A DNA stretch of 36,854 nt from a virus. The stretch is taken from positions 1-36,854 of the IMG/VR virus record IMGVR_UViG_3300017991_000038. One strand, given 5' to 3'. Position 1 is the stretch's first letter. Each line of letters opens with the position of its first letter. The notes beneath the pieces were generated by a model. That model saw only the letters and a list, made by a program, of their open reading frames with translations, searched no databases and had not been told where the DNA came from. Below, in pieces: positions 1-36,854 of the stretch. A program made the translations under genes and the position numbers.

Positions 1-123
1 AGGGCCGTCTTCCTCTGGGTCCTCTATATTATATACCTCTATAGGCTTCCACTCCTCAGCGCCGTCTAGGAGCGCCTGAATATCGGATGGACCATGCCCT
101 AGGGCAACAACATAGTCTGTAAT
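1..123. repeat. Terminal direct repeat (left copy)
   Basis: These 123 bases are identical to 36732-36854. They lie inside the coding sequence of the primase-helicase gene, and the reading frame is preserved when the two ends are joined. This fits a circular assembly overlap of a circular or circularly permuted genome of about 36,731 bp. A true short terminal repeat is possible, but a repeat inside a gene that stays in frame across the join favours the assembly-overlap reading. Confidence 0.95.
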
Positions 124-912
124 ATCACCTTTCGGAAATTCTTTCACGTTCATAGGTAGAGTGATTATGTAAAGTTCTTTCGCAATTCCGTTCAACTGTG
201 TCGCAACACGTTGAGATCCAGATCTTCCTGGTTTATCAATGTCATAAAGAACGTAGACTATTTTACCTTTGAATAACTTATTCCATTCTTGTGTCCACGT
301 GCCCGCCCCACCTGTAGGGGATACTGCATTGAATCCTAACTGGCGAAGCAAAAGAGCCTTGAGCTCACCCTCAGCCAAGATTACTTTATCTTGCTCAAGA
401 GCTTCGATAGGATAAAGTCTACGCCCACCATATCCTTTCGCGTTAATCACCTTGAACTTCTTTGCCTTAGGTGACCACCGACGAACATTCACCACATTCT
501 TTTTCTCATCAAAGATAGGAATTGATACGCGATCTTTGTCCCATCCAAGAATATAGTTTACTATTGTCTCTTCATTAAGACCCTTGTTTTCTGCGATCAC
601 GTCAATGATCTTTTTATTTTTAATGAGGGCCTCGTGTTGTTTGTAGATCCGATCCTGCGGAAGTGTTGTGCTTTTACCAGAGCACAGGGCAATTACGGAT
701 TCACGTGACCTCCCTACTTTCGCAGCGAGTAACGCGTACACATCTCCCTTTGCTCCACAGGATTTACAATGAAATACACCTGAAGTTTTATTTATGAAAC
801 CCGATGGATGGTTGTCTTCGTGGAATGGACATAGCACCATGTACCAGTCATCTCCAGATTCTTCGTAATCGAATCCAAATTCATCGAGCCATTTTTCTAA
901 ATCTGATAACAT
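1..912 (-). CDS. Primase half of a primase-MCM-like helicase fusion (N-terminal part; continues at 36731)
   Basis: This is the N-terminal 304 residues of a 927-residue protein. The frame has no stop from the ATG at 912 to base 1 and stays open into 36731 when the ends are joined. Near residues 28-56 it has a DnaG-type CHC2 zinc finger (CPFHEDNHPS, then FHCKSCGAKGD). A TOPRIM domain follows, with the acidic motif AEGELKALL and the metal-binding DxD in YDIDKPGR. Such primases lay RNA primers on single-stranded DNA for lagging-strand synthesis. The start codon overlaps the end of the preceding small gene by 16 bases, so the genes are probably translationally coupled. The second half, at 34860-36854, carries a helicase of the MCM type where T7 gp4 has a DnaB-type one. 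The primase call is secure, and the fusion depends on the circular join. Confidence 0.9.
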   Translation of the reverse strand, partial: MLSDLEKWLDEFGFDYEESGDDWYMVLCPFHEDNHPSGFINKTSGVFHCKSCGAKGDVYALLAAKVGRSRESVIALCSGKSTTLPQDRIYKQHEALIKNKKIIDVIAENKGLNEETIVNYILGWDKDRVSIPIFDEKKNVVNVRRWSPKAKKFKVINAKGYGGRRLYPIEALEQDKVILAEGELKALLLRQLGFNAVSPTGGAGTWTQEWNKLFKGKIVYVLYDIDKPGRSGSQRVATQLNGIAKELYIITLPMNVKEFPKGDITDYVVALGHGPSDIQALLDGAEEWKPIEVYNIEDPEEDGP

Positions 913-3471: not shown

Positions 3472-3743
3472 TCTGTGTCTCCTCTTTTATCTGTGACCAT
3501 TATACCTAAATTTTCTTCAACCTCAGGAACAAGATCATCGAGCACGTTATCAATGTCATGGACCTTATCCTTGAGGATCTTAAGCTCTGTCTCATAGCTC
3601 CCTATATACTTATCGAAAAGCGCATGAGCCTCTTCTGGAGACAATTGATCTGCTTGTTGAATATAGTTCCACGATTTGAATCTTGAGATGAAGGAACTAA
3701 TCTTTTTAACTTCCTCTTCTAATTTCTTTATTCTATTTTCCAA
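3468..3743 (-). CDS. Small coiled-coil protein, 91 aa (TTG start)
   Basis: The likely start is TTG at 3743, with AAGGAG about 8 bases before it. No ATG lies in a comparable position. It overlaps the end of the SNF2-type helicase gene by 11 bases. The protein is almost entirely helical and charged, with heptads at both ends (RIKKLEEEVKKISSF and ILKDKVHDIDNVLDDL). It may form an oligomer or adaptor. The function is unknown. Confidence 0.65.
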   Translation of the reverse strand: MENRIKKLEEEVKKISSFISRFKSWNYIQQADQLSPEEAHALFDKYIGSYETELKILKDKVHDIDNVLDDLVPEVEENLGIMVTDKRGDTE

Positions 3744-5463
3744 TTAATAACTCCTTGATCGAGGTCATGTCCTTTATGTATTCGGACAGGTCTCGTTTAT
3801 TCTGCAGTGCCCTTGCGATCACCAGATCAATTGAATTCTCACATACAATATCAATGTACGTTACCGGTACGGTCTGTCCGATCCTGTGGCACCGATCCTC
3901 ACTCTGTATTCGAGGTTCAAGAGCGAAGTCATTAGAATAATAGATCACGGTGTGGCACCTATCATCCTCTGGTCCAAGTAGAGTTACCCCGATTCCTCCA
4001 GCTCCAGGCTGTCCGATAAGAATCTTTATTCGACCCTCATTAAACGCCTTTATATTCTTATACCGGTCTACATCTTTAGTTCCACCATACAGTGTTCCGT
4101 AGGGTATCTTCTTTTTCTTGCACCACTGTTCTAACTTTTTAATGTCGTGTCTAAATCTTGCCCATATTAGAATCGGACCATTAGATTCCCCTACGACTTC
4201 TTCCACCTCCAACAGTTTCGCATCACTGAAGTCACCTACGTCGGGCAAGTACCCTGAGCAGATCTGAGCCAGCCTTAATATCTGGGTGATCGCGACCTTG
4301 GCCACAGACTCTTTACCGGCGAGCGAAGCAACGAAGAATTCTATCATCTGTTCATAGAGATCTCTCTGCTTTGGTGTCATCTCAACGGCCCGTGTCTGGT
4401 AAGATTTTGGTGGAAGATCTAGGCACTGGTCCTTCGTCACAACGAATGAGTGCATCGCCATTGTGTGTTTCAATTCTTCAAGGCGTTTCGGACCAGTGAT
4501 CTTCTTATGACCGCCCTGCAATTTTCTATAAGATGCGTAACGCTCTCTGTATTGAGAGAAGGATGAGTAGCCTAATGAGCCGGGTTGTAGAAATTCGAAC
4601 TGTGACCAAAGATCTAGGATGTTGTTGACTAACGGCGCTCCAGTAAGGATTGCCCTACGCTCAACGTGATCCGCAAGAGCCAGGCACGCCTTCGTCCTTT
4701 TCGCCCTACGATTCTTTATCCTCGTACTTTCATCAAGTACCATGAAGTTTAAATTCAGGCGGGCGTACACATCTTTCATTGAAGTAATTCTATCAAACGC
4801 TGTTACGAATATTTTCAAGGGTACACGTGACTTAATGCCCTGAGTAATCTGCTTGATACCCCTACCCTGTGTTCCGATCTTTTCTATCCAGTAAGGGATG
4901 TTGGGGTTGGCGTGTTTCTCAAATTCATGGATCCAGATGTCCATGACAGTCTTTGGGCAGACCACCAGAACTTTGAAAGGAGGATCTCCCATTCGCTGCT
5001 TAGCCTGCCAAAAACATTCGTCCACGATCACCTTCGTTTTGCCGGTGCCCATCTCCATAAGTAAACCGAAGTACTCAGTATCGTGGATTGCATCAAGTGC
5101 AACGATCTGGTGTTTGAACGGCTCTGTTATCGACTCAGCGTATGGCACGTCAGGCACCTGGTCATTAAATAAATACTCCCACCGATTAGCACGTTTTCTA
5201 CTTGCCCTGCGTTTTGTCAGCTCCTCGTAACGAAGAAGTGTCTTAGCCTCAGGGTCAACGACGTATTCAGCGGGGTCGAAAGTGGCAAGGTAGTTTAGGT
5301 TAGGTTGTGTTACAGGTATTCGCCAGATCTTGTAGTCCTTTAAATACCGACGCTCAGGAAATTCACGGATCAACTCCACGACTTCCTGAAACCTTTGTGC
5401 GTTAAGTGATGCGATCTCGAGCGATAAATGTTTATCGTCCCACATCCCTAATTTGAAAATCAT
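3733..5463 (-). CDS. SNF2-family SF2 DNA helicase/translocase, 576 aa
   Basis: This is an ATP-driven DNA translocase with both RecA-like halves. Motifs seen are Walker A (MEMGTGKT, 136-143), the acidic box LDEST (243-247, a DExx variant with Thr in the last place), LTGAP (273-277) and the SNF2 motif VI block SEDRCHRIGQ (521-530). The first ~110 residues form an extra N-terminal domain ahead of the helicase core, somewhat like the small accessory domains of SMARCAL1-type annealing helicases. Such proteins are common in phage replication or recombination modules, where they may remodel forks or displace proteins. It is the first gene of the early minus-strand operon, with AGGAGGAA before the ATG at 5463 and a promoter close upstream. 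Confidence 0.93.
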   Translation of the reverse strand: MIFKLGMWDDKHLSLEIASLNAQRFQEVVELIREFPERRYLKDYKIWRIPVTQPNLNYLATFDPAEYVVDPEAKTLLRYEELTKRRASRKRANRWEYLFNDQVPDVPYAESITEPFKHQIVALDAIHDTEYFGLLMEMGTGKTKVIVDECFWQAKQRMGDPPFKVLVVCPKTVMDIWIHEFEKHANPNIPYWIEKIGTQGRGIKQITQGIKSRVPLKIFVTAFDRITSMKDVYARLNLNFMVLDESTRIKNRRAKRTKACLALADHVERRAILTGAPLVNNILDLWSQFEFLQPGSLGYSSFSQYRERYASYRKLQGGHKKITGPKRLEELKHTMAMHSFVVTKDQCLDLPPKSYQTRAVEMTPKQRDLYEQMIEFFVASLAGKESVAKVAITQILRLAQICSGYLPDVGDFSDAKLLEVEEVVGESNGPILIWARFRHDIKKLEQWCKKKKIPYGTLYGGTKDVDRYKNIKAFNEGRIKILIGQPGAGGIGVTLLGPEDDRCHTVIYYSNDFALEPRIQSEDRCHRIGQTVPVTYIDIVCENSIDLVIARALQNKRDLSEYIKDMTSIKELLIGK

Positions 5464-5499
5464 CTACTATTCCTCCTACTATTGCTATCGTCAATGTAT

Positions 5500-5528
5500 A
5501 TTATAATACATTAGATTCAGTAAGTAAA
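5500..5528 (-). promoter_or_regulatory. Leftward sigma-70-like promoter for the early operon
   Basis: On the minus strand a TTTACT box (5528-5523) is followed after 17 bases by a perfect TATAAT (5505-5500). The predicted start near 5493 gives a leader of about 30 bases before the helicase ATG, with AGGAGGAA in the right place. The nearest 22-bp repeat lies 28 bases upstream of the -35 box, a good position for an activator or repressor. Confidence 0.75.
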
Positions 5529-5555
5529 CAACTAAATATCCGCTATTAGCCGTTT

Positions 5556-5807
5556 TGTTAAAATAAGTGTACATTTTATATTTATACCACACTGAATAAT
5601 TTTATCTAAATGGTGATACGGCTACCCCTGTGTTAAAATAAGTGTACATTTTCCGAATATATAAAAATATTTGGGGCAGTGGAACGCTTTCCTTGTACGG
5701 GAGGTATGAATATAAAAATGTACACTTATTTTAACATCCTCTATTATTGCCTTACGTTTCTGAGCCAAGTGGTAGGGGCATATATAAAATGTACACTTAT
5801 TTTAACA
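5556..5807. repeat. Four exact 22-bp sites in forward-forward-reverse-reverse order
   Basis: The site reads TGTTAAAATAAG then TGTACATTTT. Forward copies are at 5556-5577 and 5631-5652. Reverse-complement copies are at 5715-5736 and 5786-5807. All four are identical over 22 bases, while flanking bases differ, which marks a protein-binding site rather than a recent duplication. The core TGTACA is itself a palindrome. Spacings between copy starts are 75, 84 and 71 bases. The array is centred between the two divergent promoters. The binding protein is unknown, and the TerS-like HTH protein encoded next door is one candidate. Confidence 0.9.
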
Positions 5808-5863
5808 AATTCAAAAATGGGACAAATAAGTTAGTAGATATCCGATCTGTAACAAATGATACC

Positions 5864-5892
5864 TTTACAAATTAGCCAAAGTATGTTATAAT
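5864..5892 (+). promoter_or_regulatory. Rightward sigma-70 promoter for the late operon, possibly giving a leaderless mRNA
   Basis: TTTACA (5864-5869) and a perfect TATAAT (5887-5892) are separated by 17 bases. The expected transcription start is at 5899 or 5900, both A. The first usable start codon of the downstream gene is the ATG at 5900, so the message would begin at, or one base before, the start codon. Confidence 0.75.
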
Positions 5893-5899
5893 GTATTTA

Positions 5900-6367
5900 A
5901 TGGAACGTGCAACAAGGCGTAAAGATAGTAGTAATCGGGTAGCTGTAGAAGATCGCGTAGGGGCATTCAAAATGTATGCTCAAGGTTTCACGTTGAAAGC
6001 CATTGCGAAAGAAACAGGCTGCCACGTCAACACTATCAAGCGGTACAGAAAAGAAGATGATTGGGACGAAAGACTCAATAAGATCTATGACAAGGTGTTA
6101 GATAACTGCGAGTTGGACCTGGTCAAGTCAATTGAACAAACCTTGAACATGACCCAGACCTTTAAGCATAAGTTTGCTATAAGGCTTCGGACCATCTCAC
6201 CATCAATGATTCCCGTTACGATGATGACACACCTTAAGGAACTTTTTGAGATGGAGCAAGAACTAATAGGCTCCTTACAAGCTGCTTCAGACACTGGAGA
6301 ACTAACGTTGTACAATGAAGATCAATTAGAGGGGATGCTCAGAGATGATGAGCCGGATGCAGCGTGA
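5900..6367 (+). CDS. Putative small terminase subunit (TerS-like HTH protein), 155 aa
   Basis: The N-terminal third holds a helix-turn-helix (VEDRVGAFKMYAQGFTLKAI, then a recognition helix with CHVNTIKRYRK). The rest is helical. That layout, at this size and directly before the large terminase, is typical of small terminase subunits, which recognise packaging sites and start DNA packaging. The ATG at 5900 is chosen over the one at 5891 because the latter lies inside the -10 box. No Shine-Dalgarno sequence precedes either. The gene overlaps the large terminase gene by 23 bases. A transcription regulator is an alternative reading of the HTH. Confidence 0.75.
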   Translation: MERATRRKDSSNRVAVEDRVGAFKMYAQGFTLKAIAKETGCHVNTIKRYRKEDDWDERLNKIYDKVLDNCELDLVKSIEQTLNMTQTFKHKFAIRLRTISPSMIPVTMMTHLKELFEMEQELIGSLQAASDTGELTLYNEDQLEGMLRDDEPDAA

Positions 6368-7727
6368 GAGGGTAGCGGAAGAGTTGAGCCGCAGACATCT
6401 CGTGCGGTACACAGCCCTCACATATCCTTCCTACAAGGCCAACTGGCATCACTGGAAAGTCGGTGATCTTCTTGAGCGTGTAATCCGTGGAGAGATAACA
6501 AGATTGATCCTCAACGAGCCACCACGTCACGGTAAATCAGAACAAACATCAGTGAGGTTCCCTGCCTACGCCATGGGCAAGATGCCTAACTTACATATGA
6601 TCATAGGTTCCTACGCTTCATCATTGGCCACAGGTTTTGGAAGGAAAGCCCGCAACCAGGTTCGGAGCCCAGTGTTCAAGAGACTATTTCCAGGCGTGAC
6701 CCTTGCCAAGGATATTGGGACTGCTGGTTCCCACTGGGCCCTTAACACCGGCTCCGAATTTGTGGCTGCAGGCGTGGGCGGAGGGATCACAGGTAAAGGC
6801 GCAAACATCTTTGTCATTGATGATCCAATAAAGGATAGGAAACAGGCGAACAGCGTAGTGTACCGCGAGGCTCTTAAGGACTGGTACAGAGACGTGGCTC
6901 GTACACGGCTTATGCCTGGTGGGGCAATTATAATCCCTATGACTCGGTGGCACCACGATGATCTTTGTGGATGGTTGCTCAGAGAATGGCCAGAAGAAAA
7001 ATGGGTTGTTGCGAGACTCCCTGCCATCCAGGATCAGGATCCTTCAGAGTTTGATCCACGTCAACCAGGACAGGCGTTGTGGGAAAGCCAGTTCTCGCTT
7101 GACATTCTTAAACGAACCAGAGAAGAGATTGGACCTAACTCCTTTAACTGCCTTTTTCAGCAGAAGCCTAACAAGGGAGCCACGTCCATTCTACAAATAG
7201 CCTGGATACAACAGGACTTTGATATTACAATGCTTCCTCGTTTCTCAAGGGTCGTGGCTTCATGGGACACGGCTTTTGAAAAAGGAGAAAGAAATGCCTA
7301 TAACGTAGGCACTGTGTGGGGTGACACAGGTGGTGAATATTACCTCATTGACGTCGTGAGATTCCGGGGGGTGTTTCCCGAAGTCAAGAAGAGGATGATA
7401 GCGCTCCACGAAAAGCATCACACAGATGCAGTGCTCGTTGAAAAGGCAGCCAGCGGTAGAGATCTACTGCATGAACTTAGAGTTGAGTCAGAGATACCCT
7501 TGATCGGTATCCCTGTGAACCGAGATAAAATTCAAAGAGCCGACGCAGTGAGTGGAAGGTTTGAGGCTGGAAGGATCCACGTTCCCAAACACGCTCCCTG
7601 GCTCTCTGATTATTTCACTGAGTTGGATGAGTTCCCTGAAACAGCCTACAAGGATCAGGTGGATTCAACAACACAGGCGATAGCGTGGATGTCCAGACAT
7701 GGAGCGCAGGAGGCTTTCGCAGCATGA
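6345..7727 (+). CDS. terL: Large terminase subunit (TerL), 460 aa
   Basis: This is the motor that pumps phage DNA into the capsid and cuts it. The ATPase half has a Walker A-like PPRHGKS (59-65) and Walker B with acidic pair VIDD (157-160). The nuclease half has RNase H-like acidic residues in ASWDTAF (D308), VEKAASG (E366) and DQVDSTTQAI (D440). The length is usual for the family. The start overlaps the TerS-like gene, and the stop overlaps the portal start as ATGA. All catalytic positions look intact. Confidence 0.95.
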   Translation: MMSRMQRERVAEELSRRHLVRYTALTYPSYKANWHHWKVGDLLERVIRGEITRLILNEPPRHGKSEQTSVRFPAYAMGKMPNLHMIIGSYASSLATGFGRKARNQVRSPVFKRLFPGVTLAKDIGTAGSHWALNTGSEFVAAGVGGGITGKGANIFVIDDPIKDRKQANSVVYREALKDWYRDVARTRLMPGGAIIIPMTRWHHDDLCGWLLREWPEEKWVVARLPAIQDQDPSEFDPRQPGQALWESQFSLDILKRTREEIGPNSFNCLFQQKPNKGATSILQIAWIQQDFDITMLPRFSRVVASWDTAFEKGERNAYNVGTVWGDTGGEYYLIDVVRFRGVFPEVKKRMIALHEKHHTDAVLVEKAASGRDLLHELRVESEIPLIGIPVNRDKIQRADAVSGRFEAGRIHVPKHAPWLSDYFTELDEFPETAYKDQVDSTTQAIAWMSRHGAQEAFAA

Positions 7728-9232
7728 GCAATGAACCAATATTCATAGCAACGAAAAGTAATAACGTGGTTTCGTTCAACGCGCTTTCATATTACGCGGT
7801 GAAGGGTGCACATTCACAGGTCCTTCCTACTGACCGATTCGCTGCAACAAATTACACAGACCGCGGACTCATTGAGCCCATTCATAATCCGGAGACCCTG
7901 ATAGGGATCTCTGAGATCAACACGTGGCATAACAAGTGCTGCGATGTAAAGGCAAATGATGTAGCGGGCCTCGGATATCACTTAGAGGGCGATGAGGACA
8001 AGGAGGTTGGATCCTTCTTCTCTGATGACGCTCGACATGGAAAACCAATAAGCTCCATCCTCGTTGAAGCCCAGCGTGATTTTGAACAACTGGGATATCT
8101 TGCGATGGAGGTTGTGAGAGAACTCTATGATCCTAATGGAAAACCATCAACGTTGGCCCACATACCAGGGCAAACAATTCGCGTTCACAAGGACGGGAAC
8201 AAGTACATGCAGAAGCGTGGAACAAAGGAGAGATGGTTTAAGGCTTTCGGATATGAGAAGGACGTGGACAAGGATAATGGGAATGAGTCTCCATTGAAAA
8301 GTTTGGATCCACAACAGAGAGCCACTGAGGTAATCTGGGAAATGGGTCCATCATCTCGCTCTGACTATTACGGACTGGCCCCAATCATCCCTGCGGTAGG
8401 AGCCGTGGAAGGAATGAGAGCCCTTCGTGATTACAACATAGACTTCTTTAGGAACCACGGTGTTCCAGCTTACGCGATCTATATCACAGGTGATTACAAC
8501 CTCGGGAAAAAGAAAAGAGTAAAGCTCGAGGATGATGGGACCGGAACACTGGGTGAGGACTACACTGGTGAGGAAGGGCAAACCGCATCCTACTTTGAGT
8601 ACGCCATCATAGCACAGATAAAACAGCATCTTGCTACACTTGCGCAGAACCCTCACAGCCCTTTGTTGATCGCTGTCCCAGGACAAACTCCAGAGTCACA
8701 GGTTAACATTGAGTTTAAACCTTTGGCTGTTGAAATTAAAGAAGCGTCCTTCAGGTTATACCGCAAGGACAACAGGGATGAAATAATTGTGGCTCACGGT
8801 GTTCCGGCCTACAGGATTGGACTTGTTGAAACCGGGTCACTTGGCGGATCAACCGCTGTTGAGTCTAACCGGATCTACAGGGACTCAGTTATCGCACCTA
8901 GGAAACAACGTCTTGCATCCTTAATGAACGTGTACATTATTAGACAGGGGTTTCAAAATAAGGGAACAACATTCTACTTCAATGACCTTGATCTTGCTGA
9001 AGAGACTCATGAAAAAGAAGTGGCTGAGTTCCTCTTTGATCGGGGTGCCATGCGTCCAGTTGATCTCATGAAAAGTTTTGGTGAAGAGTTTGGCCTAGAG
9101 ATTCCTACAGAGAAGGAACAACCCCACCTTTACCTTTACTACATGGATGGCAAACCCGTTGATTCTCTATTCAGCGACGACGCTCTAGAGGCTATCAAGA
9201 GTTTATCTGATGAACTATTAAGGAGTAATTAA
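7724..9232 (+). CDS. Portal protein (PBSX-like family), 502 aa
   Basis: The portal forms the dodecameric ring at the capsid vertex through which DNA passes. The chosen start is the ATG at 7724, overlapping the terminase stop as ATGA, with AGGAGG about 12 bases upstream. A longer start at 7685 lies deep in the terminase gene. Recognisable stretches include YYGLAPIIPAVGAVEGMRAL and HGVPAYRIGL followed by a clip/crown-type helix region (SNRIYRDSVIAPRKQR), as in PBSX-type portals. Size and position after TerL agree. Confidence 0.9.
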   Translation: MSNEPIFIATKSNNVVSFNALSYYAVKGAHSQVLPTDRFAATNYTDRGLIEPIHNPETLIGISEINTWHNKCCDVKANDVAGLGYHLEGDEDKEVGSFFSDDARHGKPISSILVEAQRDFEQLGYLAMEVVRELYDPNGKPSTLAHIPGQTIRVHKDGNKYMQKRGTKERWFKAFGYEKDVDKDNGNESPLKSLDPQQRATEVIWEMGPSSRSDYYGLAPIIPAVGAVEGMRALRDYNIDFFRNHGVPAYAIYITGDYNLGKKKRVKLEDDGTGTLGEDYTGEEGQTASYFEYAIIAQIKQHLATLAQNPHSPLLIAVPGQTPESQVNIEFKPLAVEIKEASFRLYRKDNRDEIIVAHGVPAYRIGLVETGSLGGSTAVESNRIYRDSVIAPRKQRLASLMNVYIIRQGFQNKGTTFYFNDLDLAEETHEKEVAEFLFDRGAMRPVDLMKSFGEEFGLEIPTEKEQPHLYLYYMDGKPVDSLFSDDALEAIKSLSDELLRSN

Positions 9233-25330: not shown

Positions 25331-25636
25331 TTACTCGCTTGCTTCCTCCTCGATCTCTTTTTCGAGATCCGAGAGCTGCTTTTTGAGCTTCTCGAGTTTT
25401 GCCAATTTCTTGGCTGCGGGGTCGTCGCGCTTTTCTACGGCAAGCTTTTTCTCCTGCCACCGCGCTATCTGGTAATCACACCAGGCGATCCGACCTTCTT
25501 TGGTTTTGGGAAAGTCTTTTCCTTTGAGTTTGAAAAGATTGCCAGCTTCATCCCTGAGTTCAGGTACCACTGTTACCTCTTCAGCTTTTTCCTTCTTTGT
25601 GTCCTTTCCCTTCGCCGCATTTTTACTTTTTGCCAT
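25331..25636 (-). CDS. Small basic/coiled-coil protein, 101 aa
   Basis: A lysine-rich start (MAKSKNAAKGKDTKKEKAEE) is followed by a short globular part and a coiled-coil end (KLEKLKKQLSDLEKEI). The ending resembles those of the 93- and 116-residue neighbours, so the three may be diverged relatives. AGGAGGTG precedes the ATG. The function is unknown. A lysine-rich tail plus coiled coil would suit binding nucleic acid. Confidence 0.75.
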   Translation of the reverse strand: MAKSKNAAKGKDTKKEKAEEVTVVPELRDEAGNLFKLKGKDFPKTKEGRIAWCDYQIARWQEKKLAVEKRDDPAAKKLAKLEKLKKQLSDLEKEIEEEASE

Positions 25637-25695
25637 TTTGGCACCTCCTAAATTTTGGGCTAAATCATCAGCGGGGAGAGCCCATCCTGTCCCGT

Positions 25696-25711
25696 ACTGG
25701 CCGAAGCCAGT
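25696..25711 (-). repeat. C(UUCG)G hairpin in the spacer after the 57-aa gene
   Basis: ACTGGC and GCCAGT form a perfect 6-bp stem around TTCG on the minus-strand RNA, a few bases after the upstream stop. The same spacer has a second possible stem (GGGCT with AGCCC) and ends in TTTAGGAGGTG before the next start. Confidence 0.65.
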
Positions 25712-25717
25712 TTCATC

Positions 25718-25891
25718 TTAACCCCATACACTTACGTTGACTATTTCTTCCTGTGGTTCAAACTCGTAAGTTCTAGTGTTCTCATCTTCATCGATTGTTT
25801 TAACACGCCCATTGCAAGCTATGTCCGGTAAAGATCCAAGAATGTCTACTTGTGTATCTTTATCACATTCCACCGTTACGCGTAAATACAT
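25718..25891 (-). CDS. Small beta-rich protein, 57 aa
   Basis: The ATG at 25891 is chosen because AGGAGGTG lies 5 bases upstream. A longer frame to 25921 would cover the ribosome site. The product begins MYLRVTVECDKDTQVDI and ends EEIVNVSVWG, with alternating hydrophobic residues suggesting three or four strands. I do not recognise a family. Confidence 0.7.
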   Translation of the reverse strand: MYLRVTVECDKDTQVDILGSLPDIACNGRVKTIDEDENTRTYEFEPQEEIVNVSVWG

Positions 25892-25907
25892 TTGACACCT
25901 CCTATAA

Positions 25908-25955
25908 TTTAATTGTTCCATGAGGCGCTCAGTAAGCGCCCTAGCAGCAATTAAA
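25908..25955 (-). promoter_or_regulatory. Two-level stem structure before the 57-aa gene
   Basis: Outer arms TTTAATTG and CAATTAAA (8 bp) enclose an inner hairpin GGCGCT/AGCGCC with a five-base loop (UACUG in the RNA). The stop codon of the upstream gene lies in the outer arm, and the ribosome box TATAGGAGGTG follows directly. The arrangement matches 26249-26296, including the loop sequence, so a shared function is likely. Confidence 0.65.
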
Positions 25956-26232
25956 CCTCACGTTCTAATTTCTTAATTTGATCTTTCAATTTCTCAAGTT
26001 TCGCTTTTTTAGAATTGACCGAGTCATCGCTGTATTTATTTTCCCATTCGGCATCAAATCGATCCCTACGCTGTCTCAGGCGATCACATTGCTCCTGAAG
26101 TTTGGGAAGCCTGTCCTGTAGCTTTTTAATGTCCTCTTTCACAGCCAAAATTTCACTGGCAGTCAAAGTTAGTCTTCTATGAGCATCCCTTCGGTCAGCT
26201 TCTAGTTTTTCTTTACTTTCAATCCAACCCAT
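25951..26232 (-). CDS. Small coiled-coil protein, 93 aa
   Basis: It is helical over nearly its full length, with heptads in the middle (VKEDIKKLQDRLPKLQEQ) and a final KLEKLKDQIKKLEREV nearly matching that of the 101-aa neighbour. The ATG at 26232 has AGGAGGTG upstream. It probably forms oligomers. The function is unknown. Confidence 0.72.
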   Translation of the reverse strand: MGWIESKEKLEADRRDAHRRLTLTASEILAVKEDIKKLQDRLPKLQEQCDRLRQRRDRFDAEWENKYSDDSVNSKKAKLEKLKDQIKKLEREV

Positions 26233-26248
26233 TTAACACCTCCTATTA

Positions 26249-26296
26249 GTTAAATCCACATCACTGCCCCCAGTAGGGGCAGGGGATAAATTTAAC
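26249..26296 (-). promoter_or_regulatory. Two-level stem structure before the 93-aa gene
   Basis: Outer arms GTTAAAT and ATTTAAC (7 bp) enclose an inner hairpin CTGCCCC/GGGGCAG with a UACUG loop in the minus-strand RNA, and AGGAGGTG follows. Architecture and loop are the same as in 25908-25955, though the stem sequences differ. This compensatory variation suggests that the RNA fold matters. Confidence 0.65.
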
Positions 26297-26642
26297 CTTC
26301 GTTCTCGAGAGCGGCTTCTAGTTCCGCTATCTGCTTTTTCTTCCGTTCTATCTGGCGCTTCTTTTTCTTAACATCGCGATCCGCTTTTACATCAGGCGAT
26401 CTGTTATACCAGAATTTATATAAGGAATTGAATTTTCTGGTAATTTGCATGCTAAGTTTGGAAAGGGAAGCGTGATGCGAAGGGACCTCTTCTAAAATTT
26501 CGAGGGCTTTTCTCATATGCCTTAGACTAATTTTAATCTCATCCACTGCTGCATCGTAAGCAGCCTGTTGTTCCTGTGTCATCGCAGGTTTCTTTTTAAC
26601 GTCCGCAACACTTGTTTCCTTTTCAATTTTCTTTTTTGCCAT
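26292..26642 (-). CDS. Small basic coiled-coil protein, 116 aa
   Basis: The ATG at 26642 has AGGAGGTG 6 bases upstream. An earlier start at 26672 would cover that site. It begins MAKKKIEKETSV, has a helical middle (AVDEIKISLRHMRKALEIL) and ends with a lysine-rich coiled coil (RQIERKKKQIAELEAAL) like those of the 93- and 101-aa neighbours. No domain is recognised. Confidence 0.72.
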   Translation of the reverse strand: MAKKKIEKETSVADVKKKPAMTQEQQAAYDAAVDEIKISLRHMRKALEILEEVPSHHASLSKLSMQITRKFNSLYKFWYNRSPDVKADRDVKKKKRQIERKKKQIAELEAALENEG

Positions 26643-26686
26643 AATAGCACCTCCTATAATCTGTGGGAGCATAATTACTCCTGAAG

Positions 26687-27604: not shown

Positions 27605-29551
27605 TCATGAACCCCATTCCTTCATTTTTACAGATTTACTTTCCTGCATACACTTAATTATACTTTTCCTATATTCTTTTTCCCCGACCTGTTCTAAGCG
27701 AACTGGGACTTCTTTTCCTTGGGACAAATACCTGTGAGCCACTTTTGCATCGACCAACATTGGGACACGAAAATCAGTATCTTCAAGAACCTTCGTAGCA
27801 TCGACTATAAAATCCACATATTGATCCTCAGGAAGTTCAAAGATAACTGAGTCATGGACAGTAGTCATGAATAAACATTCCGGATATTTTGTTATGAGCT
27901 CTTCATGCAAGGCTGCTATCCTATCCTTACAGAGATCCGCAGCTGATCCTTGGATGATATAATTTGTAGACTTATGTCTGGGAGCATTTTCCCCGAACAC
28001 ATATCTCCTCCCATAATAGTTCTTTATCCATCCCCTACGCTTGACAGCTCCTTCTACCTTCTTCTGGAATTTTTTAATGTCCGGAAACTTATTATGATAG
28101 TCTGCATAGATCTTTAGGGCGAGCTGCTCTGTTTCCCCTGTGTTTAATTGCTTAGCCCTATCCTTTGTTTGCTGACCACCACCTGTAAGGTACGCTCTCA
28201 TTTGTTCCCGCATGTTTTCATCTTCCGCTCCCTTAAGGGCTAAAAGACCAGCTATGTTCTTTATAAGAGCTTTCTTTCCCATTCCGTAGATAAACGAGAA
28301 ATTCATTTGCTTCGCGAATTGTCTATCCACTCCTAGCATTCCTGCAAGATGCCCGTGGAAGTCCATGTAGGGATTCTCTTTATATGCTCCGAGGATTGCT
28401 TCCGAGTTTGTATAATGGCCGAAGATTCTATATTCAACCTGGGAATAATCGAAGGCCACAATTACATTTCCTTCCCGTGCGAGCAGGTGAACTTCCGCTT
28501 CAGGTGGAACATTTTGTAAGTTCGGATCCTTGCATGACCACCGGCCAGTCTTCGTCCCACTTTGTTTGAAATCTGCGTGCATCATTCCATCTTCTGCTCT
28601 TCGTCTAATCCATCCTTTACAGTAGGTATTGGAATAATGTTTCACTGAATTATACTTAGCAATTAAGGGACCAATTGGATGATCGAGAGTCGTAAGAGCC
28701 ATCTGGTTCCACTGAGGTTTTCCGGTTTTCTTTTGATAGGCTTTTGGAATTATTCCAAACTTGCCCATTAGGATCCTAGTAATTTCTGATTCCTGGTTAG
28801 GATCCATCTCTTCACCAGCTGCTTCATTTATTTGTTCGTGAAGGTCTATCATTTCTTGAAGACATCGAGCATAAGTCTTTTTCAACTTTAGCCAATCCAC
28901 ATTTACGCCAGTGATCTCACTTCGAAGGATCCACTTTGTAAGACGCTTTTCAATATCCCAAACACGATCCGAGTAGGAGGGAAGTTGTCTTTCTAATTCG
29001 TGAAATAATTCAGCTGTAAGTTTCACATCTTGTTCCGCGTAAGGTCCCATCAAGTGTGTAGGAACCCTTCCCCAATCCTTGGTCTTTATTGATTTTGCAT
29101 AGGCAGAGACAGCCGGATCCTTAGCCGCTCCCAAGAATAGTTTGCCAAGATTATCTAATGAGTAAGATGGAAGCGCGTTGTGAACAAGTCTTGCCAAAAC
29201 CATCGTGTCTATTATGAGACCATTCCACATTATTCCATCTTGCCAAAAGAATCTACCGTCGAATTTTATGTTGTGATTTACAATGTCCCTACCGGATCCC
29301 ATCACATCTTTGAGCCATTTAATTCCTTGTGTAAAATTAAAGTTCTCATTATCGTTTCCACTGTGATGGCGAAGAGGCATGTACCATTGATGTTTTGCAT
29401 CAAGTGTCCCAATCGCTGCGCCTGCTATACGGTGCCCATTAAAAGGTTCAAAGGCGCTTACCTTGTCATCGAAAGATGTTGTTTCCAGATCCACGATCAA
29501 CGTTTCATCATTTGAAAAGTTTGGCAGATCCTCCGAGTTCTTTAATAACAT
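27605..29551 (-). CDS. DNA polymerase, family A with 3'-5' exonuclease, 648 aa
   Basis: This is the replicative polymerase. The exonuclease motifs are DLETTS (D21, E23), NHNIKFD (D98) and YAEQDVKL (Y171, D175). Polymerase motif A is AFDYSQVEYR (D368), motif B RQFAKQMNFSFIYG (R410, K414, F418, Y422) and motif C TVHDSVIFE (D567). All catalytic acids are present, but motif C has HDS where most family members have HDE, and motif B has NFS where NFG is usual. F418 (the E. coli F762 position) predicts discrimination against dideoxynucleotides. No 5' nuclease domain is present. It overlaps the kinase-UDG gene by 44 bases and has GGGAG before the ATG. Confidence 0.95.
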   Translation of the reverse strand: MLLKNSEDLPNFSNDETLIVDLETTSFDDKVSAFEPFNGHRIAGAAIGTLDAKHQWYMPLRHHSGNDNENFNFTQGIKWLKDVMGSGRDIVNHNIKFDGRFFWQDGIMWNGLIIDTMVLARLVHNALPSYSLDNLGKLFLGAAKDPAVSAYAKSIKTKDWGRVPTHLMGPYAEQDVKLTAELFHELERQLPSYSDRVWDIEKRLTKWILRSEITGVNVDWLKLKKTYARCLQEMIDLHEQINEAAGEEMDPNQESEITRILMGKFGIIPKAYQKKTGKPQWNQMALTTLDHPIGPLIAKYNSVKHYSNTYCKGWIRRRAEDGMMHADFKQSGTKTGRWSCKDPNLQNVPPEAEVHLLAREGNVIVAFDYSQVEYRIFGHYTNSEAILGAYKENPYMDFHGHLAGMLGVDRQFAKQMNFSFIYGMGKKALIKNIAGLLALKGAEDENMREQMRAYLTGGGQQTKDRAKQLNTGETEQLALKIYADYHNKFPDIKKFQKKVEGAVKRRGWIKNYYGRRYVFGENAPRHKSTNYIIQGSAADLCKDRIAALHEELITKYPECLFMTTVHDSVIFELPEDQYVDFIVDATKVLEDTDFRVPMLVDAKVAHRYLSQGKEVPVRLEQVGEKEYRKSIIKCMQESKSVKMKEWGS

Positions 29552-32014: not shown

Positions 32015-32501
32015 GTTTATCTCCTTTAAATACAGCTACGATCCTTTCACGGATCCTCTCTTTAACTATTGTCACGTCTATAGGTTCGCGACCAGCCCAA
32101 CCCATAAACATATCCATATCAATCGGGTCCCAAATATGACCACCACAAATTCCTTCCGGCCACTTGTAGGGAACCGATATAATCGCGATTTTAGATATCG
32201 AGAATATCTTTTTCATAAAAGCTGAGGGATCCCCTACGTGTTCGAGGACTTGAAGACAAGTTACAAGATCTATATTCAGACCTTCACCCCATTCCATAAA
32301 GTCTGCAGTGTAGGTGTCTACTCCCTCAAGTTTAACAGGCTTTACATCAACCAAGAATTTTTCTGGATTCTCGATGTCCAGAATATACTCAGTTTGTCCT
32401 CCACCAATGTCAAGGACTGTTCGCCCTTTGCCATAGGTTTCTGCAAATTCCAGTACTTTCTTATAGTACTTCAAGTTCTTTCTCTTTTCCCAGTAACTCA
32501 T
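32007..32501 (-). CDS. Class I SAM-dependent methyltransferase, 164 aa
   Basis: The SAM-binding motif I is VLDIGGGQTEYI (29-40). An acidic strand (FLVDVKP) and LQVLEHVGDP (83-92) follow, as in small Methyltransf_11/23-type enzymes. No DNA-methylase DPPY or cysteine motif is present, so the substrate is likely a small molecule, sugar or protein rather than plain DNA bases. The ATG at 32501 has GGAGGAGA before it. It overlaps the oxidoreductase-dUTPase gene by 41 bases. Confidence 0.85.
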   Translation of the reverse strand: MSYWEKRKNLKYYKKVLEFAETYGKGRTVLDIGGGQTEYILDIENPEKFLVDVKPVKLEGVDTYTADFMEWGEGLNIDLVTCLQVLEHVGDPSAFMKKIFSISKIAIISVPYKWPEGICGGHIWDPIDMDMFMGWAGREPIDVTIVKERIRERIVAVFKGDKHV

Positions 32502-33663
32502 AGGTCTCCTCCACTTCTTTTGATTTTTGTTGAAACGTTCTATAAATTTCGTCGGCGTCAAAATTCCATATCGCACCAATAGTCATTAGAAATTTTAAAG
32601 CGTCCACGTACTCGACAAGAACCTTTTGCCTATCAGGCTTCTCACCGGGTTTCCACTTTTTCCAATTTAATTCCTTGAGCATTTCATGAAGCTCATCAAC
32701 TACACAGGTATTGTAGTATATTGTATCTTCTGTAAGCTCACCAACATCTCTGTTGAGATCGGAAAAATTTGTTTGGAAGAATGCTTGCCTGTTCCACATA
32801 TGTTCCCAAGTGAAACGAGAGCGGGACAGGCGAACAGTATCCTGGATCTTCCACCAGTGTTTCCAAGTGGCATGTCGACCACAAAACAAGATCCGATCAG
32901 GCGGGATGTTATGTTTATCTGTCTTGATGTACGACACAGGGAGATAGGTGGCATCTTCGATATCATGCTTTCCCGCAAACTCATAGACATACTTATCTCG
33001 CAGGCCAAACACCCTATGGTAGGGACGGGCATCGGCGAAGTAGGCGAATGCAAAGCTATCATCGTCCTGCTCTGGTGCATCATTGCACACCTTGAATGTA
33101 GCTCCACCATATTTAAGATCCAGGGCTTCAGGCTTCCTTCCTTGCCAGTAATTCCAGAAAAAGTTTGCTGGAATAGTTGAAATAATTTGATCATACTCTA
33201 ACTCCCCTGCGTTGTGTAATTTAATAACTTTGCTATCTATCCTTTGCAATAGATCATGCTGTGGAAGGATATTCAAGCATAAACCTTCATAAATATCAGT
33301 GATCTTATTTGCAAGAAACTTAAAGGTATCTCCAGGTACGCTGAGCGTTCTATCAGTATCCATAAGATCATCCCTACAGCCCATCTTTTTATGAACGTAA
33401 TCATCAATTACTGGAGAAGGCATGTAAGGATAATATTTACCATTGAAGAAATATTTGATAGGCAATTCACGGGGCTCTGGTTCTATTCCCAAGTCAAGCA
33501 ACAGTCGCCTATTCTCTTCGTTGTCATGCAATGTCACTACGTGATCCATTATTAAGGGCATTGGTCTTAGGGCATCTCCCAGCGGATCAATCACTTGAAA
33601 GTCTTGATTATAGTGTGCAAAGATTAACGCGTTTATTCCAGTCCCTAAAATATATCTACTCAT
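32461..33663 (-). CDS. FAD/NAD-binding oxidoreductase (UDP-galactopyranose mutase-like) fused to all-alpha dUTPase-like domain, 400 aa
   Basis: The N-terminal part starts with a dinucleotide-binding turn (YILGTGINALIFA, 4-16). It has YDQIISTIPANFFW and a late ILFCGRHATWKHWWKIQD, like the flavin-binding end of amine oxidases and UDP-galactopyranose mutases. From residue ~284 an all-alpha dUTPase/MazG-like domain follows, with DELHEMLKELNWKKW and LVEYVDALKFLM. That family hydrolyses dUTP to keep uracil out of DNA. The ATG at 33663 follows GGAGAAAG and overlaps the glycosyltransferase stop. No internal start separates the domains. The oxidoreductase substrate is unknown. Confidence 0.75.
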   Translation of the reverse strand: MSRYILGTGINALIFAHYNQDFQVIDPLGDALRPMPLIMDHVVTLHDNEENRRLLLDLGIEPEPRELPIKYFFNGKYYPYMPSPVIDDYVHKKMGCRDDLMDTDRTLSVPGDTFKFLANKITDIYEGLCLNILPQHDLLQRIDSKVIKLHNAGELEYDQIISTIPANFFWNYWQGRKPEALDLKYGGATFKVCNDAPEQDDDSFAFAYFADARPYHRVFGLRDKYVYEFAGKHDIEDATYLPVSYIKTDKHNIPPDRILFCGRHATWKHWWKIQDTVRLSRSRFTWEHMWNRQAFFQTNFSDLNRDVGELTEDTIYYNTCVVDELHEMLKELNWKKWKPGEKPDRQKVLVEYVDALKFLMTIGAIWNFDADEIYRTFQQKSKEVEETYELLGKEKELEVL

Positions 33664-34591
33664 TTTCTTTCTCCAATATATCATGTGCAATTCTAACCGC
33701 GCTCACTTCAAAGTAGGGTAGGAGCGTTTCGCACTGATGTTTCCACAGTGAGACCGTATCGAAACCATACGCAGAGTCAAGATCTTTATTGTCCTTAAAG
33801 AACCATTCATCAGGTATCTTAATCCCCTTAGGTGTTGAGTTGAATACGCTCTTATGGAATAACAGAGGGCGGCCACAGCAAAGGGACTGGGCCACACGAG
33901 GTGTCAGCGTACCGAACGGCTTCCAGCGTGCGTCAGAGAAATGTAATGAAATTTCCGAGACTTGAAAAGCCAGTTGAAGATCAACGAAAGCACAATGTGG
34001 GTTGGCGTTAAAACCATTCTTTATCCACCCATACCCAGTCAGCGTAAGATCCTCCCTTCCAACAAATTCACGCAACACAGTTTTCCTACTTGCCTTGCAA
34101 TTTCCTACGTACCCAAATTTAATAGAAGGAATTTCATTAGGTTTTCTATCAATCCGATAAAGATTCGGGTAGGTACATTTCATAGTGTATCTCAACTTAC
34201 CACCTTTTTCTCTGAGCCAGTATTCAGGATCATCATGATTAGAGATCACTGCCAATTTTTCTAATCCAACTTCCTTGAAGGCTTTTCTAAAATCCTGAAG
34301 AACATCATCCTCGTTCAAAGCAATGAGCTTGATAGGCATTCTTAAAAGATTCATGAGGATTTCCTGCTGGGCAACAGAGAACCACCCTCCTTGTATCAGG
34401 ACTATAGAACCTTCCTCGATCTTATCTATCTCTGAATATTTCAGCACTTTGCCTTCATGTCCAAATTGTGTCATGGCGTGCCATATATCATAGGCTTTCC
34501 ATCCCTGTGATATTATTTTCCTACGGGCTGCATAATCCCCGTTGTGAAAGGCATGTAGGGAATGATTCGTTAGACTTATTAGATAAATCAT
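33656..34591 (-). CDS. Glycosyltransferase-like protein (GT-B, CgeB-like), 311 aa
   Basis: A GT-B-like C-terminal half is suggested by KFGYVGNCKASRKTVLREF, a turn DLTLTGYGW and SDARWKPFGTLTPRVAQSLCCGRPLLF, where the P.G..R..E-type donor site is expected (here FGTLTPRVAQSL). Such proteins transfer a sugar from a nucleotide donor. The ATG at 34591 overlaps the preceding stop as ATGA. With the oxidoreductase and methyltransferase next to it, it may make or attach a sugar, perhaps on phage DNA. Confidence 0.7.
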   Translation of the reverse strand: MIYLISLTNHSLHAFHNGDYAARRKIISQGWKAYDIWHAMTQFGHEGKVLKYSEIDKIEEGSIVLIQGGWFSVAQQEILMNLLRMPIKLIALNEDDVLQDFRKAFKEVGLEKLAVISNHDDPEYWLREKGGKLRYTMKCTYPNLYRIDRKPNEIPSIKFGYVGNCKASRKTVLREFVGREDLTLTGYGWIKNGFNANPHCAFVDLQLAFQVSEISLHFSDARWKPFGTLTPRVAQSLCCGRPLLFHKSVFNSTPKGIKIPDEWFFKDNKDLDSAYGFDTVSLWKHQCETLLPYFEVSAVRIAHDILEKENE

Positions 34592-34863
34592 AGCGGGCAC
34601 ACCCAGTGAATTAGCGCCTCAGAGATCTTTTCTCCATGATATATTTCTACCCATTCGTTTGTAGATTTTTCATGAATACATGAGGCAATAAAGAAGCCTG
34701 TTCCCGGCTCTCTTCTAAAGAATTTGCATAGCTCACAACCACAATCTATTCCTGGGCATTCACTGGGATGGTACTCAAGGTCACATGGAAAATCTACATC
34801 CCCTTCCCTACAAAGTAAGTGTATGCAGTTTCCACACTTCTCTCTCCATAGTTCACAATTCAT
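34588..34863 (-). CDS. Small Cys-rich protein, probable zinc-binding, 91 aa
   Basis: It has about eleven cysteines in pairs (CELWREKCGNC, CPGIDCGCELC, and single ones towards the end). The spacing suggests two zinc sites. It begins MNCELWREK and ends ALIHWVCPL. ATGA overlaps link it to the helicase upstream and the glycosyltransferase downstream. The function is unknown. The pattern differs from the Cys-rich protein at 1066-1350. Confidence 0.72.
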   Translation of the reverse strand: MNCELWREKCGNCIHLLCREGDVDFPCDLEYHPSECPGIDCGCELCKFFRREPGTGFFIASCIHEKSTNEWVEIYHGEKISEALIHWVCPL

Positions 34864-36854
34864 ATTTCACTGTCCTCCAAGTCGTCCTCATTCTTGAGGT
34901 CTTCTCTCTCCAATTGTTTCAACAGCGCGATAAAGGCCACAGTTTTCATGTAACCCCTACGCGCCCTCTTAAGAGCATTCTTTCTAACGAGGAATCCTAC
35001 GAGTCCTCTTGATTCTTCTAAAGAATACTCAGTCCAATCTGTGACATCGAACGCGGTAAAGTTTGTTGTATCAAGCATTGATCTTACTACGTCCTTCGCA
35101 TAGGATGTTCCCCGCATTCTTTCAGCGACCTCTTCCTCATCACGCAATTCATTCTCGGTCTTTATCATCCTTGAATAATCATAGTATCCAAATGTATCTG
35201 CTGAATATAATTTGTCAAGGAAATTTGCAGCGTACTCGACGTGACAGGGTCTGACTCTAACACAATCACCATCATGTGAATATGTCCGAACAGCTAATGC
35301 CGCTGAGATCCGAGCCAACTTTAACCTTTGGTCTGCTGCCTCCACCAATGGAATATTGCTGACATAAGTCTTTCCAAGATCAGAGGCAAGATCCAGAGTC
35401 ATCTGAGTAGCCTTGGGGTCAAACTTTATTTGATCCACATTTCTAGACCATCCCCACAAGATTAAGTTTTGGCAAAGTTCTTTGGTGAACACGTGCTTTG
35501 CCTTGGGTTTATCTGCATCGGATAGATTCACGATCCTTCTATCAACCTCACCACTTGTGACAATGATCGCCAGATCAAATCTCCTTACATCTTCCAACGC
35601 CCCGATCAATTCTTTTATCGCCTCGACTCCAAAATTGTAGGAAAGTAGTTTCCTATCTGATCTTGGGTTTGAGATCCAGATCAATCTTGTTCTGGCGTTA
35701 GTCATTGCTTTTTCAATCTTCGAAACCTCAGCCACCCCGGATGATCTAACCTCAGTTAGTTTCGCGATAACTTCTGTTGCGAGCCCTTTCACCTCTTCGA
35801 GAATCACCAACCTTCTATCTTGAAGAGTGATCACACACCAAGATACGAACCAGCGTCTGGCAGTTTCCTGAAGTCCCCCAATTAATCCAGCAACGGAGGC
35901 TCCTTTCGCATCTACCTTTTCACCAAGGCCATAATGACTCATCATCTTAGAAGAGCATTCAGATTTTCCTTGACCAGAATCCCCCAGTATCAGTGCCTCA
36001 ACCCATCCCTTGATTCTTTGCCCTTGAAAGTTTAAGTACAAGGGAGAATGATATGCTAGGTCTACCACCATGTGTAAATTCTGTCTTTCGTAGATCCTAG
36101 TCACATTTGCAGAAAGATCACCATAGATCTCAGTGAATTTTTTATCTAATCCCTCAATGGTCCAACGATCAGGCTCAAATGCAGAAAGATCCATGTTAAG
36201 TTTGAAAATCGACAATGAATCTACACTGGGCTTCGCTTCATAAATGAGTAGCGTGGCGTACTGAGTCTTTGGCTCTGGAACAACCTTAGCCAGAATCTGA
36301 TACGTGGTATTAGTTTCTAGATTTGAACCTACGTAAAAGGCTCTCCTTACTACATGTGTATCATCTCCGATGTTTAACTGAGGAATAAGTCGGACCTCTT
36401 CAACGTTAATGGTCCGAGCGATATCAATCATAAATTCATCACATGCTCTAGGTATCTGCGAAACTCTCTTAAGAACGCGTCTCATGTTCTCAGCCTGAAT
36501 ATCAATTAATTCCAGTAACACAGGATGCTTCTCTGAAATTTTTACTCGGGCTTTCAACTCACTCGCATTCACTGGGCAAAGTCCACAGTACTCTTTATCC
36601 TTAAGACATGTGATATCAAATTCACAAGGAACAATGTAGGGAGCGATATCTTTTGCCGAGACCACAACCTGTGATTCTACTGATTTTAGAAAGTACTTTG
36701 CATTACTTGACTGGGCTAAGCTGACCCTTTCAGGGCCGTCTTCCTCTGGGTCCTCTATATTATATACCTCTATAGGCTTCCACTCCTCAGCGCCGTCTAG
36801 GAGCGCCTGAATATCGGATGGACCATGCCCTAGGGCAACAACATAGTCTGTAAT
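34860..36854 (-). CDS. MCM-like AAA+ helicase half of the primase-helicase fusion (continues into 912-1)
   Basis: The frame is open from 36854 to the stop at 34860 and joins the primase at 1-912 (the last 123 bases repeat the first). In full-length numbering it has a four-cysteine cluster (C340, C346, C353, C356), Walker A GDSGQGKS (554-561), Walker B LVILEE (612-617), then VAEVSKIEKAMTNARTRLIW (which fits the MCM presensor hairpin), sensor-1-like ISNP (657-660) and an arginine finger RRFDL (687-691). The end looks like a winged helix. The order matches MCM helicases. The Walker B acidic residue is Glu-Glu, where MCM proteins usually have Asp-Glu. The protein should unwind the fork and prime it. 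Confidence 0.8.
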   Translation of the reverse strand: MTDYVVALGHGPSDIQALLDGAEEWKPIEVYNIEDPEEDGPERVSLAQSSNAKYFLKSVESQVVVSAKDIAPYIVPCEFDITCLKDKEYCGLCPVNASELKARVKISEKHPVLLELIDIQAENMRRVLKRVSQIPRACDEFMIDIARTINVEEVRLIPQLNIGDDTHVVRRAFYVGSNLETNTTYQILAKVVPEPKTQYATLLIYEAKPSVDSLSIFKLNMDLSAFEPDRWTIEGLDKKFTEIYGDLSANVTRIYERQNLHMVVDLAYHSPLYLNFQGQRIKGWVEALILGDSGQGKSECSSKMMSHYGLGEKVDAKGASVAGLIGGLQETARRWFVSWCVITLQDRRLVILEEVKGLATEVIAKLTEVRSSGVAEVSKIEKAMTNARTRLIWISNPRSDRKLLSYNFGVEAIKELIGALEDVRRFDLAIIVTSGEVDRRIVNLSDADKPKAKHVFTKELCQNLILWGWSRNVDQIKFDPKATQMTLDLASDLGKTYVSNIPLVEAADQRLKLARISAALAVRTYSHDGDCVRVRPCHVEYAANFLDKLYSADTFGYYDYSRMIKTENELRDEEEVAERMRGTSYAKDVVRSMLDTTNFTAFDVTDWTEYSLEESRGLVGFLVRKNALKRARRGYMKTVAFIALLKQLEREDLKNEDDLEDSEI
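36732..36854. repeat. Terminal direct repeat (right copy)
   Basis: This is an exact copy of 1-123. It should be counted once in the genome. Everything in it belongs to the primase-helicase gene. Confidence 0.95.

Follow-up and report, generated by a model that had tools for sequence, protein, structure and literature searches.

The locus described here raises the question of whether a phage can carry a DnaG-type primase and an MCM helicase in a single protein, and of what such a protein would do during replication of the phage genome. Primases of the DnaG type are known to work with 5'-to-3' helicases that travel on the lagging strand, and MCM helicases, which unwind DNA in archaea and eukaryotes, are known to work with the unrelated AEP primases. 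The locus comes from the IMG/VR record IMGVR_UViG_3300017991_000038, which was analysed over its whole length of 36,854 bp (hereafter called the window). Both ends of the window carry the same exact 123-bp direct repeat, which shows this phage contig to be circular. When the ends are joined, positions 912..1 and 36731..34860 on the minus strand form one frame of 927 codons plus a stop codon (Table 1). A sequence-only reading that preceded this work had assembled the gene from the same two parts and had proposed a DnaG-type TOPRIM primase and an MCM-like helicase in one 927-residue chain. This proposal is borne out by Pfam, by profile searches of the PDB, by fold comparisons and by a closely related contig (L124), and the frame runs uninterrupted across the join.

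Table 1. Features of the primase-helicase gene and its surroundings in the window (residue numbers refer to the joined protein).
Feature	Position	Strand	Evidence
End repeat, copy 1	1..123		exact end comparison
End repeat, copy 2	36732..36854		exact end comparison
Gene 5' part, residues 1-304, DnaG-type primase	1..912	-	joined frame, Pfam
Start codon ATG	912..910	-	matches L124 start codon
CHC2 zinc finger, residues 18-76, ligands C28, H31, C49, C52	685..861	-	PF01807
RNA-polymerase basic region, approximately residues 90-175	388..645	-	aligned with Aquifex DnaG 2au3
TOPRIM domain, residues 178-254; E183, D224, D226	151..381	-	Toprim_2
Gene 3' part, residues 305-927 plus stop, MCM helicase	34860..36731	-	joined frame, Pfam, fold matches
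MCM N-tier, OB fold and four-cysteine site C346, C353, C356, C401	36210..36737	-	predicted structure compared with MCM
MCM AAA+ motor	35160..36209	-	PF00493, Foldseek, VIA
Walker A GDSGQGKS, residues 554-561	35961..35984	-	G554 and K560 in 143/143 relatives
Arginine finger R688 in EDVRRFD (MCM SRFD motif)	35580..35582	-	143/143 relatives
C-terminal winged-helix-like domain	34905..35147	-	model secondary structure H-H-H-E-E
SNF2-type helicase	3733..5463	-	PF00176
Family A DNA polymerase (PolA)	27605..29551	-	PF00476, E 2.4e-57

We consider it likely that the product of this gene is the replicative primase-helicase of the phage itself, in which a DnaG-type primase is coupled to a 3'-to-5' hexameric MCM and primes the excluded strand. 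The MCM part, comprising an N-tier, an AAA+ motor and a winged helix, would most likely assemble on single-stranded DNA as a hexameric ring and most likely unwind with 3'-to-5' polarity, and the primase would make RNA primers for the family A polymerase of the phage. Cellular MCM moves along the leading-strand template with its N-tier first. The primase, being joined to the N-tier, would therefore sit at the fork junction, where it could prime the lagging-strand template while that strand is excluded. A gene with this role may be essential to the phage. The window also encodes ThyX and a ligase-like gene, and there is no match to a DnaB-type helicase (DnaB_C, PF03796) anywhere in the window. 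A match to SNF2 is found near the primase-helicase gene in 83 of 199 loci.

It is possible, though unlikely, that the protein serves instead in initiation and origin melting as a Rep-like initiator whose primase provides no more than the first primers, and that the fork then relies on host DnaB. Consistent with such a role are the winged helix present in the model and the example of Cch2 from SCCmec, a mobile-element helicase of 3'-5' polarity that needs iterons (PMC7581432). However, the phage brings a polymerase and a thymidylate synthase of its own, and the primase-helicase chain shares the plan of T7 gp4, which favours a protein that works at the fork.

The N-terminal third of the protein is, by its sequence, a complete DnaG-type primase, with a zinc finger, a basic region and a TOPRIM domain whose E and DxD residues are intact. 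In Pfam, the zinc finger matches CHC2 / Zn_ribbon_DnaG (PF01807) with 41.7 bits against a cut-off of 24.9 (E 1.1e-10), and its four ligands are kept in 129-142 of 143 full-length relatives. The match to Toprim_2 lies close to its cut-off of 22.1 bits, with 22.6 bits on the N-terminal piece and 19.6 on the joined protein. Among the same relatives, G182, E183 and D224 of the TOPRIM domain are invariant and D226 is present in 139. The closest solved structure to this half is Aquifex DnaG 2au3 (E 2.8e-11 with the single sequence and 9.1e-30 with the family profile), and the family profile also finds the primase half of T7 gp4 (6n7i_A, E 9e-10). The DnaG-type identity is drawn from sequence, the full-chain fold search of the PDB having been filled by MCM; a viral fold library searched with a full-length model returned mostly TOPRIM proteins with poor TM-scores.

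This half looks active. There is only a slim chance that it primes no longer and is retained merely as a ring-loading or structural module, as might be imagined from Twinkle, a gp4 homologue which on the account given in PMC3610141 lost primase activity in animals. The TOPRIM E and DxD residues and the zinc ligands of this half are retained by almost all 143 relatives, and its exchange for an unrelated AEP primase in other phages (see below) suggests that there is selection for priming.

The remainder of the protein is, on both sequence and predicted structure, a genuine MCM. With PF00493 (MCM), whose cut-off is 23.3 bits, the window reaches 30.7 bits (E 3e-7, or 2.1e-7 for the window half), although this model also matches in bacterial control genomes and clearing the cut-off is therefore not specific in itself. 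A single-sequence search of the PDB with the helicase half places Sulfolobus MCM first (E 2e-5), and the best 60 matches of the family profile comprise only MCMs, from 9e-14, and DnaG/T7-type primases. The helicase half of the window itself was modelled with AlphaFold2 from a 52-sequence alignment, giving a mean pLDDT of 92.6 and a pTM of 0.86. All of the best 50 rows returned for this model are MCM chains, both in Foldseek (best 1.1e-23) and in VIA-align 2. The best VIA match is SsoMCM 6mii_E (Z 29.4, rmsd 6.7, 458 aligned residues), and the aligned range, model residues 40-563, spans the MCM N-tier and the AAA+ motor. One MCM alignment (8ouw_6) extends further, to model residue 638, and so into the winged-helix-like C terminus. 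A full-length relative (L015) was also modelled with AlphaFold2 (pLDDT 91.8, pTM 0.73) and matches the MCM fold of 6mii_E with Z 30.1. The window MCM is nevertheless divergent, with approximately 15% identity to solved MCMs and a large rmsd of approximately 6 A over the 458 residues.

The conserved positions tell the same story. Among the 143 full-length relatives, the Walker B glutamate E617 is found in 142, the sensor-1 asparagine N659 in all and the presensor hairpin lysine K642 in 123. Each of the cysteines C346, C353, C356 and C401 is present in at least 90% of relatives, and together they make up the N-tier site of an MCM, a putative zinc site, which is the second cysteine cluster of the sequence-only reading. 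The sequence-only reading had listed a CHC2 finger, a TOPRIM domain, a second cysteine cluster and an AAA+ domain with MCM-like presensor and arginine-finger motifs, and had asked for profile and structure comparisons. The first three agree with the Pfam matches and with residues conserved in relatives, the motifs with K642, the invariant R688 and a PF00493 score over its cut-off, and the PDB profile, Foldseek and VIA all return MCM for the helicase half. That reading was right about the AAA+ part but underrated the extent of the likeness, in that an MCM N-tier is also present.

The idea that the AAA+ half comes from another clade (AAA_5, Mg-chelatase/ComM, SF3 or SCCmec Cch / DUF927) and is merely MCM-like has very little left to commend it. 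The window half has a weak match to the dynein-related AAA_5 family, but its E value of 0.046 compares poorly with 2.1e-7 for MCM, so that a better fit to another AAA+ family, which had been named beforehand as evidence against MCM, is not seen. One relative matches Mg_chelatase (6.6e-5), but 48 of the 52 relatives searched with Pfam match MCM with E 0.01 or better, and two match AAA_5. No other AAA+ family appears in the best 60 PDB profile matches, the fold match covers the N-tier as well as the motor, and both the NAR...NP hairpin/sensor-1 stretch and the RFD finger agree with MCM. Dynein-like, Mg-chelatase, SF3 and Cch/DUF927 identities for the motor were dropped on these scores, with no weight given to their absence from lists of fold matches.

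In L124 (IMGVR 3300018080_000067), a contig of 37.8 kb, the homologous gene lies in one frame away from the contig ends. Its protein of 932 residues is identical to that of the window at 639 of 933 positions (68%), end to end and with the start codon included. The order of genes is also shared: SNF2, g2092, g1347 and g1066 are found on the upstream side as in the window, and g34588, g32461, ThyX, tmk (thymidylate kinase-like) and PolA on the downstream side. In a search of a phage collection, 47 cultured-phage records have a single match that spans 80% or more of the joined query. Although the gene spans the contig ends, an assembly artefact that fused a primase gene with an MCM gene is as good as ruled out by the exact 123-bp overlap, the open frame and these relatives, with L124 foremost, that carry the whole protein uninterrupted and near end-to-end.

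Relatives of this protein are numerous. A scan of viral contigs with the window protein alone found none, the peptide patterns of this query being too specific; of two alignment-based scans, one found at least 120 relatives and the other 261, and 80 from each were retained. A corresponding scan of genome contigs found seven loci, mostly from Paenibacillus, Brevibacillus and Lachnospiraceae. The helicase half is matched by 203 ORFs of the fetched loci; 153 of these also match the primase half of the window, both counts including duplicate contigs. Cultured members infect Microbacterium (the Krampus group), Arthrobacter (Wollypog), Bacillus (BSP7), Weizmannia (Youna2) and Paenibacillus (API480). 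They carry TOPRIM and MCM, as well as CHC2 where it is kept, and are 27-37% identical to the window protein over 87-98% of its length. Their product names are 'DNA primase', 'DNA primase/helicase', 'DNA primase small subunit' and 'DNA directed DNA polymerase', and MCM is never named. Judged by these matches, the TOPRIM-MCM architecture is widespread in phages.

Several members depart from the usual arrangement. In Krampus (L003) and Wollypog (L005), the zinc finger does not follow the standard CHC2 pattern, and no Zn_ribbon_DnaG is reported there by Pfam. Three loci have two overlapping ORFs (L077:5947-7503 and 7497-8777; L037:5992-7581 and 7577-8920; L084:5941-7548 and 7509-8780). The breaks fall near window residue 490, between the MCM N-tier and the AAA+ motor, and could mean that the genes are truly split or that frameshifts occurred at similar positions. 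Another locus has a TOPRIM primase gene (L087:6001-6714) just upstream of a separate MCM gene (6967-9006). Two family members are on records filed as plasmids, NZ_CP079100.1 (L010, Bacillus velezensis p3) and NZ_CP019718.1 (L011, Paenibacillus larvae unnamed1), which look like phage-plasmids or phage genomes.

Some relatives carry a different primase. The AEP domain PF01896 is found at the N terminus in vB_BboS-125 (L009), B. velezensis plasmid p3 (L010), a Paenibacillus locus (L118) and a Lachnospiraceae locus (L120). These four proteins have no CHC2 or TOPRIM match in Pfam, and the window protein has no PF01896 match there; their MCM half is homologous to that of the window, with 29-33% identity in vB_BboS-125 and L118, for example. 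A reciprocal search with the vB_BboS-125 protein recovers TOPRIM-MCM phages with E values down to 9e-58. The record note for this AEP-type protein mentions homology to an MCM family protein.

A bootstrapped maximum likelihood tree of the helicase halves was made from 36 rows and 625 columns; it is unrooted and therefore silent on the direction of change. The fused AEP rows need two changes on this tree, which are forced by well-supported branches, and they form one group in only 1% of bootstrap trees. L169, which has a TOPRIM domain with E and D-x-D in its chain, falls between AEP rows with support of 98/94. A separate AEP-like stretch upstream in L089 (8e-9) represents a third, weaker change. 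The pattern of well-supported branches thus indicates that TOPRIM and AEP primases have been exchanged at least twice on homologous MCM halves.

These observations lead us to favour, by a modest degree, a model in which the phage MCM, a predicted ring, is a docking base on whose N-tier TOPRIM and AEP primases have repeatedly replaced each other, and in which the TOPRIM form primes the excluded strand at the front of a ring that moves as a 3'-to-5' helicase. If true, priming and unwinding would be coupled in a third manner, in addition to those of DnaB-DnaG/T7 gp4 and CMG-Pol alpha. In one AEP-MCM gene, the AEP part is split by approximately 1.36 kb of other sequence (L086:3632-3895 and 5252-5943; also in L179), which is possibly an intron, an intein or a homing element.

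Four known systems invite comparison. BcMCM of a Bacillus cereus prophage (McGeoch & Bell 2005; Samuels 2009; Sanchez-Berrondo 2012; on the review given in PMC4538821) is likewise a single chain, with primase then MCM, from a phage of bacteria, but its primase is archaeo-eukaryotic and unrelated to the CHC2/TOPRIM primase of the window, a comparison made via proteins of the AEP-MCM type, which carry PF01896. This AEP-MCM relative is a 3'-5' helicase; no primase activity was found in the first study, and primase and polymerase activity was found in a later one (PMC4538821). T7 gp4 and Twinkle have the same order and the same class of primase. The sequence-only reading had drawn the likeness to T7 gp4 and had expected the helicases to differ, and both points hold: the primase matches 6n7i_A, and the window has MCM and no PF03796 in place of the RecA-type (DnaB-like) 5'-to-3' helicase that gp4 uses on the lagging strand. 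Archaeal MCM (Sulfolobus solfataricus 6mii, 3f9v) shares the N-tier and AAA+ fold and the same motifs, but it has no primase in its chain and only approximately 15% identity to the window MCM. Aquifex DnaG (2au3) shares the zinc finger, basic region and TOPRIM domain but is a stand-alone protein, whereas the window primase is fused to MCM. Bacterial DnaG works with DnaB.

Both halves of the fusion were correctly seen at the outset, although it had not been recognized that this design is common among phages or that AEP-MCM fusions had already been described from phages and plasmids (McGeoch & Bell 2005 and Samuels 2009, as cited in PMC5862659). No paper describing the TOPRIM-MCM fusion or the exchange of primases was found in a search whose coverage stopped short of most subscription papers and all preprints. 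The combination itself sits in public records.

A DnaG-type primase and an MCM in one chain break the usual pairing of helicase and primase, and the rules of their coupling become testable with one purifiable protein. Unrelated primases swapped on one helicase are also direct evidence on the non-homologous replacement of replication modules, which bears on why the bacterial and the archaeal/eukaryotic replication machineries differ. There is also a gain for annotation, since many 'DNA primase' entries can be named, as can PHROG 18685. This family of 1028 positions and unknown function matches the MCM half of the window from position 375 (E 4.7e-88), and by this match it can be named an MCM fusion.

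Other genes of the window deserve brief mention. On either side of the primase-helicase gene, the minus strand encodes a small cysteine-rich protein (34588-34863 and 1066-1350), and both proteins have relatives at the same places in L124. The minus-strand gene at 32461-33690 encodes a protein of 409 residues that matches dUTPase_2 only at residues 327-395, and there is no Pfam match in its N-terminal 300 residues. Finally, there are three small lysine/glutamate-rich ORFs with similar endings on the minus strand at 25331-26672; they probably form coiled coils and are possibly repeats of one gene.
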